Source of the DNA: Acidovorax sp. sif1233
GTDB lineage: Bacteria > Pseudomonadota > Gammaproteobacteria > Burkholderiales > Burkholderiaceae_C
Reading direction: 5' to 3'
DNA: 64,000 bases
NCBI RefSeq assembly: GCF_019218755.1
Contig: NZ_JAHUWZ010000001.1
Span: 434,001 to 498,000, forward strand
The notes under the pieces are model-generated. The model saw only the letters and a program-made list of their open reading frames with translations, was not told where the DNA came from and searched no databases. Both the position numbers and the translations under genes were made by a program. Of the stretch, positions 6,000 through 58,121 are shown in pieces. Positions within the stretch are counted from its first letter, which is position 1. Every line of letters begins with the position of its first letter.

Positions 6000-6043
6000 T
6001 GCAGTGCTTACGCTTCAAGCGCTGACAGCTATCATTTTTGCTG
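6000..6043 (-). repeat. Dispersed intergenic repeat, AATAGCT/GCGCTTG family (copy H)
   Basis: Read on the minus strand: ATAGCTGTCAGCGCTTG, a short loop, then GTAAGCACTG, preceded by a T/A-rich edge. It matches the family of copies at 13979, 43051, 53435 and 58065. It sits between the convergent acyltransferase and alpha/beta-hydrolase genes. Confidence 0.7.
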
Positions 6044-10737: not shown

Positions 10738-12080
10738 ACACCGCCACCGGCAACACGAATACCGCGATCACCCTGAATGAGGGGTTCTTCGCCCGCCGCA
10801 ACTGGTTCGACTGGCTGTTCGCGGCCATCGTGGCGGTGGGCGGCCTCTATGCGCTGCAGCGCTACGGCAGCTACATGGATGTGTACGAAAAAGGCATCCT
10901 GCTGGGTGCCATTCCCTGCACCATCTGGCTGGGCTGGTTCTGGCGGCCCCTGCGCGTGCTGATGCTGGTGGTGACGGCGGTGGCGCTTTTTGCCATCGGC
11001 CTGTACCAGCAGGACGGCGCGGGCAGCCTGGCGCGCGCGGACACGGTGTTCGGCCTCAAGTACTTCCTGTCGAGCCAGTCCGCCATCCTCTGGATGAGCA
11101 TGCTGTTCTTCATCAGCACCGCGTTCTACTGGATCGGCATGTTCTCGCGCGGCGAGGGCAGGACCATGGGCATGCTCGGCTCGCGCATCGCCTGGGTGGC
11201 CGTGGCCATGGCGCTCATCGGCACGCTGGTGCGCTGGTACGAGAGCTACCTCATCGGCCCGGACATCGGCCACATCCCGGTGAGCAACCTGTATGAAGTG
11301 TTCGTGCTGTTCTGCTGGATGACGGCGGCGTTCTACCTGTACTACGAGCAGCAGTACGACACCCGCGCGCTGGGCGGCTTCGTGATGCTGGTGGTGAGCG
11401 CGGCGGTCGGCTTTCTGCTCTGGTACACCGTGGTGCGCGAGGCGCATGAGATCCAGCCCCTGGTGCCCGCGCTCAAGAGCTGGTGGATGAAGCTGCACGT
11501 GCCCGCCAACTTCATCGGATACGGCACGTTTGCGCTGGCTGCCATGGTGGCGTTCGCCTACCTCATCAAGCAGCAGGCCACCGAAACCCGCTGGTACAAG
11601 CTGGCCCCCCTGTGGCTGCTGGGCGTGGTCCTGTGCTTCGAGCCCATCGTGTTCCGCCAGGGCGCCACCGAGAACGGCGGCAGCTACTGGATGGTGTACT
11701 TCGGCATCTCGGCATTCATCGTGGCGGGCATCCTCTTTGGCCGCAAGCGCATCGCGGCGCGCCTGCCGTCGTTCGAGATTCTGGACGACGTGATGTACAA
11801 GTCCATCGCCGTGGGCTTTGCGTTCTTCACCATCGCCACCGTGCTGGGGGCGCTGTGGGCGGCCGAGGCCTGGGGCGGCTACTGGAGCTGGGACCCGAAA
11901 GAGACCTGGGCGCTGATCGTCTGGCTCAATTACGCGGCCTGGCTGCACATGCGCCTCATGAAGGGCCTGCGGGGTACCGTCTCGGCCTGGTGGGCGCTGG
12001 TCGGCCTGGCGGTGACCACGTTCGCGTTCCTGGGCGTGAACATGTTCCTGAGCGGGCTGCACAGCTACGGCACGCTGTAG
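10734..12080 (+). CDS. ccsA: Cytochrome c biogenesis protein CcsA (CcsB-type), haem handling subunit
   Basis: A 448-residue polytopic membrane protein. The start is the ATG overlapping the ResB stop. It carries the tryptophan-rich haem-binding WWD motif within [18 protein letters not shown], flanked by conserved His-bearing segments ([10 protein letters not shown] and [11 protein letters not shown]). Eight or more membrane helices are visible. Together with ResB it forms the cytochrome c synthase needed for cytochrome c4, cytochrome c1 and probably the haem-sensor diguanylate cyclase at 626. Confidence 0.94.
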
Positions 12081-12146
12081 GCCCGCGGCTGCCCGCACGC
12101 CTCTGCCCGGCAGGCAGGCGGCGCCTGCAACTATTGTGTCTTCGGT

Positions 12147-12172
12147 GTAACCTGAACGGCCCAGGGAACGAA
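12147..12172 (+). promoter_or_regulatory. ECF sigma-F-type promoter of msrPQ (GTAACC-N16-CGAA)
   Basis: GTAACC at 12147-12152, exactly 16 bases, then CGAA at 12169-12172. This equals the promoter consensus of the SigF/NrsF class of ECF sigma factors (Caulobacter SigF; Azospira SigF, which drives msrP/yedY under hypochlorite stress). A start site near 12180 would give a leader of about 50 nt. An imperfect palindrome with outer arms GGAAC (12166) and GTTCC lies at the predicted start site. Confidence 0.65.
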
Positions 12173-12232
12173 CTAGCAGTTGTTCCGCTCTATCGCAGAG
12201 TCCGTTTCAACCGAGAACCACCGGAGACACCC

Positions 12233-13237
12233 ATGCTGATTCCATCCCGCGAACCGGGTTTCAACCACCCGCATTCCTCCGAGATCACGCCCCGCTCGGT
12301 GTACGAGGGGCGGCGCAGGATGCTCCGGCTGATGGCCGGCGGGGCGGCGGGCGCGGCACTGGCCGCCTGGGCCGGGCGCGAGGCGCTGGCACAGCAGGGA
12401 GCTGTCGCGCGTCCTGGCAAGCTGGTGGCGCTGGCCAGTGCGAAGTCCACCGTACCGGGCGCCATCTCGATGGAAAAGCTCACCGACTACAAGGACGCGA
12501 GCACCTACAACAACTTCTATGAGTTCGGCACCGACAAGGCCGACCCCGCCCGCAACGCTCACACCCTGAAGACCACGCCATGGACCGTGGAAGTCGAAGG
12601 GCTGGTGAAGAAGCCTGGCAAGTACGGCATTGAAGACCTGCTCAAGCTCAGTGCTCAGGAAGAGCGCATCTACCGGCTGCGCTGCGTGGAGGGCTGGTCG
12701 ATGGTGATTCCATGGGTGGGCTATTCGCTGTCCGAACTGATCAAGCGGGTGGAACCGCAAGGCAGCGCCAAGTATGTGGAGTTCGTGACGCTGGCCGACA
12801 AGGCCACCATGCCGTTTGTCGGCTCGCGCGTGCTTGACTGGCCCTATGTGGAGGGCTTGCGCCTGGACGAGGCCATGCACCCGCTGACGCTGCTGGCGTT
12901 CGGCATGTACGGCGAAGTGCTGCCCAACCAGAATGGCGCGCCGGTGCGCCTGGTGGTGCCCTGGAAATATGGATTCAAGAGTGCCAAGAGCATCGTCAAG
13001 ATCCGTTTTGTCGAGAAGGAGCCAGGCACGGCGTGGAACAAGGCGGCCAAGCAGGAGTACGGCTTCTACTCCAACGTGAACCCCGAGGTGGACCACCCCC
13101 GATGGAGCCAGGCCACCGAACGGCGCATTGGCGAAGACGGCCTCTTTGCCAAGAAGCGCAAGACGCTGATGTTCAACGGCTACGAAGCCCAGGTGGGGCA
13201 GCTGTACGCGGGCATGGACCTCAAGAAGTTCTACTGA
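12233..13237 (+). CDS. msrP: Protein-methionine-sulfoxide reductase catalytic subunit MsrP (YedY)
   Basis: A 334-residue periplasmic molybdopterin enzyme that repairs methionine sulfoxide in envelope proteins. A Tat signal peptide has RRRML at residues 27-31, a hydrophobic stretch [15 protein letters not shown] and a cleavage region near ALAQQ. The Mo-coordinating cysteine is C151 in [11 protein letters not shown]. The start is supported by CGGAGA a few bases upstream. msrQ follows after 65 bp. The sigma-F-like promoter upstream suggests induction by reactive chlorine or similar oxidants. Export would use TatABC, encoded at 56-58 kb. Confidence 0.95.
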
Positions 13238-13302: not shown

Positions 13303-13953
13303 ATGCGAAAACTGCTGCTCCATCCTGCCGCCAAGCCCGTGGTGTTCGTGCTGTGCCTGCTTCCGCTGGCCTGGCTGGTGTATGCCGCGGCCGCCAACGA
13401 ACTGGGGGCCAACCCTGCCGAAGCCCTGATCCGCGCCACGGGCGACTGGACGCTGCGCGCGTTGTGCCTGGTGCTGGCGGTGACACCGCTGCGCGTGCTC
13501 GCCTCCACGCCCCAGCTCGCGCGCTTTCGGCGCATGCTGGGGCTGTTCGTGTTCTTCTATGGGTTGCTGCACCTGCTGAGCTACGCCTGGTTCGACATGG
13601 GCTTTGATGTGGCCGACATCGTGCGCGACATCGTCAAGCGGCCCTTCATCCTGGTGGGGTCCCTGGCGCTGCTGGTGCTCACGCTGCTCGCCGCCACGTC
13701 GTTCAACCGCGCCATCAAGGCGCTGGGTGCAAGGCGCTGGCAGGCCCTGCACCGCAGCGTGTACGCGGTGGCGGGGCTGGCCATCCTGCATTTTTTCTGG
13801 ATGCGCGCGGGCAAGAACGATTTTGGCGAGGTGGCGGTCTACGCGGTGGTGCTCGCGGCCCTGCTCGGCTGGCGGCTGTGGCACCGGCTGCGCAAGCGGC
13901 AGGCGGCGCAGGGGGCGGCGGCTCCCCGCCGGACGGCCGCTGGGGCCCGGTAA
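13303..13953 (+). CDS. msrQ: Protein-methionine-sulfoxide reductase haem-binding subunit MsrQ (YedZ)
   Basis: A 216-residue integral membrane b-type haem protein of the ferric reductase-like family that passes quinol electrons to MsrP. About five or six helices are visible, with conserved His in GLLHLLSY, LHRSVY and ILHFFW. The ATG at 13303 is the first that gives the usual N-terminus (MRKLLLHPAAKP). It lies 65 bp after msrP and is very likely co-transcribed. Confidence 0.93.
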   Translation: MRKLLLHPAAKPVVFVLCLLPLAWLVYAAAANELGANPAEALIRATGDWTLRALCLVLAVTPLRVLASTPQLARFRRMLGLFVFFYGLLHLLSYAWFDMGFDVADIVRDIVKRPFILVGSLALLVLTLLAATSFNRAIKALGARRWQALHRSVYAVAGLAILHFFWMRAGKNDFGEVAVYAVVLAALLGWRLWHRLRKRQAAQGAAAPRRTAAGAR

Positions 13954-13978: not shown

Positions 13979-14040
13979 ATTGCTATAAAATATATAGCTA
14001 CCTGCGCTTGCCAGTAAAGCGCCAGGCCCTGTTTTTATTG
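13979..14040 (+). repeat. Dispersed intergenic repeat, AATAGCT/GCGCTTG family (copy A)
   Basis: ATTGCTAT, then ATATAGCTACCTGCGCTTG, a short loop, AAAGCGCCAG and a distal TTTTTATT. It fills the convergent gap between msrQ and the MBL-fold gene, where its stem and T-run could also end transcription. Confidence 0.75.
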
Positions 14041-43050: not shown

Positions 43051-43127
43051 TTGCTGGAATGCTCCTCTTTTAATAGCTGCCTGCGCTTGATGGAAAAGCG
43101 CTGGCGGCACTTTTTATTCATATTTCT
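43051..43127 (+). repeat. Dispersed intergenic repeat, AATAGCT/GCGCTTG family (copy B)
   Basis: TTAATAGCTGCCTGCGCTTG, loop ATGGAA, AAGCGCTGGCGGC and TTTTTATT. It fills the gap between ibaG and murA and is nearly the family consensus. Confidence 0.75.
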
Positions 43128-58064: not shown

Positions 58065-58121
58065 AGATAAAAATAGCTGCCAGCGCTTGTCCGTCAAGCG
58101 TTGGCAGCTATTTTTTTGATA
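58065..58121. terminator. Bidirectional terminator formed by an intergenic repeat (copy E)
   Basis: Arms of 21 bases (58069-58089 and 58095-58115) around loop TCCGT, with one C/T difference. The left arm starts AAAAATAGCTGCCAGCGC, the right ends GGCAGCTATTTTT, so a stem plus U-run exists on both strands. It lies between the convergent tatC and DegS-like genes and belongs to the AATAGCT/GCGCTTG repeat family. Confidence 0.85.

Follow-up and report, generated by a model that had tools for sequence, protein, structure and literature searches.

A periplasmic methionine sulfoxide reductase is encoded in Acidovorax sp. sif1233 by the genes msrP and msrQ, and a 26-base element before them raises the question which sigma factor transcribes this operon and which other genes share its control. 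The window, i.e., the whole stretch of 64,000 nucleotides that was analysed, holds the catalytic subunit gene msrP at 12233..13237 (+; NF003767, 485 bits, cut-off 207; PF00174) and msrQ, coding for the haem-binding membrane subunit, at 13303..13953 (+; NF003831, 181 bits, cut-off 130; PF01794). MsrP was 93-94 % identical to the proteins of the nearest relatives, Acidovorax sp. NO-1, A. facilis and A. defluvii. Upstream, a ccsA-like gene (PF01578) ends at 12080; downstream, a gene for an ODP-family metallo-beta-lactamase-fold protein (PF19583; 14063-14887, -) is convergent with msrQ. Directly past msrQ lies one copy of a dispersed intergenic repeat, TATAGCTRCYWGCGCTTG, that was found in five copies with at most two mismatches (6016-6033, 13993-14010, 43072-43089 and 58072-58112; 0.02 expected), one pair being oppositely oriented.

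A putative SigF promoter before msrPQ

The gap of 152 bases between the ccsA-like gene and msrP contains GTAACCTGAACGGCCCAGGGAACGAA at 12147-12172 (+), an exact GTAACC-N16-CGAA element by sequence reading and motif scan. The -35 element GTAACC (12147..12152) and the -10 element CGAA (12169..12172) are separated by 16 bases, and the element has the orientation of the gene. CGAA ends 60 nt upstream of the msrP ATG at 12233. For this promoter class a transcription start 6-10 nt past CGAA is predicted (12178..12182), which would give msrP a leader of about 50-55 nt, including the probable ribosome-binding site GGAG at 12223..12226, which almost every relative in the genus retains as CCGGAG. The earlier note had claimed an exact match as well as a fitting position, orientation and leader of about 50 nt, and these claims stood. 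A sigma-70-like promoter or a terminator was not found in 12000-12400. An inverted repeat in the spacer, CCTG-N7-CAGG at 12151-12165, occurs in many but not all Acidovorax loci; it is possibly the site of an additional regulator or a chance feature.

No other site with zero or one mismatch was present in the window. A Markov model of the window composition predicted about 0.05 exact sites on both strands (0.018 + 0.028). If one mismatch is allowed, 1.56 sites are expected by chance, thus it is the exactness of the match that counts.

The SigF-NrsF pair and its proposed regulon

The earlier note had predicted blind that a SigF-NrsF pair is encoded elsewhere, and had tied its reading to a search for an ECF sigma factor gene beside an NrsF (DUF1109) gene. 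Both genes were present: profile searches identified one such pair in the whole genome of 5.76 Mb. The sigma factor gene sigF (locus L032, 7357-8001, +) belongs to ECF subfamily PRK12536 (300 bits, cut-off 250), and directly 3' of it nrsF (L032, 7988-8629, +) codes for a DUF1109 anti-sigma factor (PF06532, E 4.7e-70, 237 bits, cut-off 26.8). With the narrower NCBIfam equivalog NF042994 the locus remained below the cut-off (143 vs 300 bits). Exactly two cysteines are present in NrsF, C130 and C180, and neither varies among 18 homologues. Divergent from sigF is a bufferin operon composed of a DUF2282 gene for a bufferin-type precursor, genes for the MNIO bufferin maturase BufB (360 bits, cut-off 310) and a DUF2063 protein, and a DoxX gene.

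Exact GTAACC-N16-CGAA sites occurred three times in the genome: before sigF, before the divergent bufferin operon and before msrP, the latter 355 kb from sigF-nrsF on the same contig. As a number this is no excess over the roughly four sites predicted from composition by extrapolation of the window model, and sites with one mismatch (109) were fewer than those of the reversed control (220); the genome-wide site count was therefore dropped as evidence. With a site number at background, it is the location of the sites and their conservation that carry the argument. The significant point is that all three sites are correctly oriented and lie shortly before sigF, the adjoining bufferin operon and msrP. 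The exact box of sigF lies 19 nt upstream of its ATG; autoregulation is thus predicted, from the presence of the box only. That msrPQ is one regulon member among others, as had been anticipated, agrees with the location of the other two exact sites in the promoters of sigF and the bufferin operon.

The exact match, its conservation in the genus and the motif shared with sigF and the bufferin operon make it very probable that the element is a SigF (ECF16) promoter, and that SigF released from NrsF drives sigF-nrsF, the bufferin operon and msrPQ. In the unstressed cell, NrsF with its two conserved cysteines would hold SigF at the inner membrane. An extracytoplasmic oxidant or a thiol-reactive metal would act on NrsF, probably via both cysteines, and set SigF free. 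Free SigF would then transcribe its own operon, the divergent bufferin operon for the production of a copper-binding peptide, and msrPQ for the repair of oxidised periplasmic methionines. SigF binding at the element, the liberation of SigF, the inducer and the +1 position are the parts of this scheme that we infer.

A circuit that responds primarily to metals (copper, chromium, cadmium) and not to hypochlorite, with msrPQ repairing metal-driven oxidation, is a serious possibility, if one we rate as somewhat less than even. The co-regulated operon belongs to the bufferins, a family of copper-chelating peptides (PMC12452194), and sigma-F of Caulobacter was induced by chromium and cadmium, not by the tested oxidants, among them peroxides (PMC3511200). 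Furthermore, a methionine-rich MXKDX peptide of the MrpX type (TIGR02953) had no match in the sif1233 genome at E 0.1. On the other hand, BcrS of Brucella is HOCl-inducible (PMC8315932), EcfF of Bradyrhizobium reacts to H2O2 (PMC3420878), and the Azospira system guards against hypochlorite, as far as the secondary account in PMC5748585 goes. Either signal leaves room for the other. The assignment to the SigF/NrsF class was borne out by the promoter and the gene pair, whereas the hypochlorite reading attached to it had been borrowed from Azospira: the MrpX partner (TIGR02953) was not found and the regulon is Caulobacter-like. Overall the first interpretation was supported, with two points softened, the hypochlorite signal and the transcription start, which is a predicted one.

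Conservation of the box among relatives and the reading sigma factor

Among 80 msrP loci of other genomes, ten had an exact box within 250 bases upstream of msrP and two more a box with one mismatch; permuted motifs at the same loci gave on average 0.005 exact matches. NrsF was present in 12 of 13 genomes with the box vs 8 of 34 without it (47 genomes; p 2.5e-5), and in all 11 genomes of this family sample with an exact box. Ramlibacter pallidus has a one-mismatch box and lacks NrsF. On the MsrP tree, three supported independent pairs bear on the relation of box and NrsF, and none disagrees, too few for significance. The box also recurs upstream of msrP in Variovorax and Pseudacidovorax. Genome-wide scans of ten relatives located exact sites before sigF and msrP again, in Acidovorax also before the divergent bufferin gene. 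Single exact sites preceded further bufferin genes, one of the BufA2 type in A. facilis (G002:C88) and one in a Ramlibacter; the other exact sites in the ten relatives look like chance matches. In Variovorax, an exact SigF box precedes a gene for an exported MsrB (L264, G008:C10).

Within Acidovorax, 36 of 39 msrP loci carry the exact box, with a variable spacer: all 31 loci of NrsF-positive genomes vs five of the eight NrsF-negative ones (Fisher ~0.006). The rule that the box strictly tracks NrsF, which in the family sample holds as long as the box is exact, thus fails in this genus and was abandoned. Two of the NrsF-negative genomes showed box loss, apparently by two extra spacer bases in G083 and by a disrupted -10 element in G074; these look like decaying relics. 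The five exact boxes retained without NrsF or a SigF-type sigma factor (L296 in G076, L290 in G079, L287 in G084, L306 in G088 and L305 in G090) are either recent relics after the loss of sigF and nrsF or are read by a second sigma factor. Two of these five genomes are single-contig assemblies.

The five orphan boxes, two of them in single-contig genomes, speak for the view that the element is a true ECF promoter read also or mainly by another ECF sigma factor, with SigF as one reader in the genus, and bacteria of this kind do carry several other ECF sigma factors. We consider this unlikely for sif1233: its genome has SigF, the sigF promoter has the identical motif, and the box was lost in three of eight NrsF-negative loci and in none of the NrsF-positive ones, as expected if SigF maintains it. 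A chance match, with msrPQ transcribed from elsewhere, e.g., by read-through from ccsA, is very improbable and largely refuted. Ten fixed bases do turn up a few times per genome and a terminator was not found between ccsA and msrP, but the exact box is kept in 36 of 39 genus members despite the variable spacer, recurs in Variovorax and Pseudacidovorax and tracks NrsF. SigF remains the preferred reader of the msrPQ promoter.

A second promoter class was defined post hoc, from the data themselves: in 26 relatives without a SigF box, msrP is preceded by GTAAG-N16/17-CGA(C/A), mostly 22-29 nt upstream of the start. Loci with a GTAAG-N16-CGAC box include L036, L041, L048, L053, L060, L070, L084 and L106. 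Exact GTAAGA-N15-CGAC sites were few in 13 genomes with this class. Many of them lay before msrPQ, msrA, exported msrB and bufferin-type genes, or before genes that look like those for thioredoxin, DUF1223, TVP38 or glutathione reductase proteins; all these names except msrP are sequence readings. Together these targets would make up an oxidant-type regulon. In other genera, genes for exported MsrB of the same kind as in Variovorax have a GTAAG/CGAC box (L151, L155, L179); the promoter exchange proposed for msrPQ may extend to exported MsrB as a further operon.

These boxes resemble the sigma-E promoter of Neisseria (-35 GTMAGBWTT, -10 CGTCTAAH; PMC2893595). In Neisseria (sigma-E/MseR) and Haemophilus (RpoE2/HrsE), an ECF sigma factor and a zinc-type anti-sigma factor govern Msr enzymes (PMC2893595, PMC7907618); these systems are unrelated to SigF/NrsF and absent from sif1233, where neither an exact GTAAGA-N15-CGAC site nor a homologue of such a sigma factor at E 1e-20 was detected. 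In the relatives, a second ECF sigma factor of family NF009173 (L207, 1489-2055, and homologues) has behind it the gene of a small, anti-sigma-like HxxxCxxC protein, an arrangement known from Neisseria and Haemophilus, and adjoined bufferin-type genes in three of four genomes inspected. The sigma factor occurred in 17 of the 20 genomes that have the GTAAG/CGAC box vs 1 of 27 that lack it (p 7e-9), and in none of the 13 genomes of the SigF-box class. On the MsrP tree, where the promoter class switches several times, seven supported independent pairs bear on the relation of second box and NF009173 sigma factor, with an average of six in agreement (median p 0.03). The second motif also lies beside the sigma factor gene in the divergent direction; G013 has an exact copy there (L192, ahead of a thioredoxin-like gene), three other genomes a copy with a single mismatch. 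We infer that the NF009173 sigma factor reads the GTAAG/CGAC box. A first candidate, an ECF sigma factor beside a response-regulator gene (G033:C1:631201), was dropped in favour of this bufferin-linked one, found in 17 of the 20 box-class genomes. Literature searches on GTAAG/CGAC ECF motifs yielded nothing specific.

A proposed exchange of circuits and comparison with known SigF/NrsF systems

In related genera, one or the other of two unrelated stress circuits appears to control the operon msrPQ, and both circuits appear to accompany bufferin-type genes. We regard it as fairly probable that in the Comamonadaceae and neighbours msrPQ and exported MsrB are an exchangeable cargo of two ECF circuits, SigF/NrsF in Acidovorax, Variovorax, Pseudacidovorax and some Ramlibacter, and a Neisseria sigma-E-like sigma factor with a small zinc-type anti-sigma factor in Rhodoferax-, Hydrogenophaga- and Roseateles-type bacteria. 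Each circuit would have its own bufferin-type operon beside the sigma factor gene, the msrPQ promoter would be swapped with the circuit, and the orphan boxes of SigF-negative Acidovorax would be intermediates. The SigF/NrsF regulon type is known, and the sif1233 site appears as an added member of it; less routine appears to be the use of an unrelated sigma/anti-sigma pair by the relatives. On genomic evidence, a betaproteobacterial msrPQ joins a SigF/NrsF regulon whose predicted parts list of three promoters is complete, and periplasmic methionine repair would be tied to a copper-peptide operon. The apparent handover of one repair operon between unrelated envelope-stress circuits makes natural strains comparable with respect to the signal of the anti-sigma factor, oxidant or metal.

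Nothing specific was found in the literature on ECF16 in Acidovorax. The system of Brucella melitensis shares the ECF16 sigma factor, the DUF1109 anti-sigma factor and the msrPQ-type target: BcrS-AbcS controls the bcrXQP (msrQP) operon with mapped GTAAC-N17-CGAA promoters (PMC8315932). In Brucella the sigma factor gene adjoins the msr genes, and a methionine-rich peptide accompanies them; in sif1233 a long distance separates sigF from msrPQ, and a bufferin operon takes the place of the peptide. For Azospira suillum (SigF-NrsF-MrpX-YedY1), the secondary account describes control of a periplasmic methionine sulfoxide reductase by SigF/NrsF (Melnyk 2015 via PMC5748585). Within the limits of that source, the combination of SigF/NrsF with such a reductase is shared by sif1233 through the promoter match, and the 355-kb distance between sigF and msrPQ and the lack of a TIGR02953 MrpX match are differences. 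Without a TIGR02953 match for an MrpX-type peptide, the regulon of sif1233 is of the Caulobacter make rather than the Azospira or Brucella make.

The sigma-F regulon of Caulobacter crescentus comprises sigF-nrsF, two bufferin-type operons and msrP (CC2748), with a consensus of the GTAACC-N16-CGAA type; 5'-RACE located the operon promoters, and the CC2748 promoter came from a motif search allowing two substitutions (PMC3511200). In the betaproteobacterium sif1233 there is one bufferin operon instead of two, the msrP box is exact and msrQ stands next to msrP. Both organisms share the promoter consensus, sigF-nrsF, the divergent DUF2282/DUF692/DUF2063/DoxX operon and msrP. The cysteines C131 and C181, proven important in Caulobacter NrsF (PMC3511200), are equivalent to C130 and C180 of sif1233 and to C129 and C179 of Bradyrhizobium OsrA (PMC3420878).
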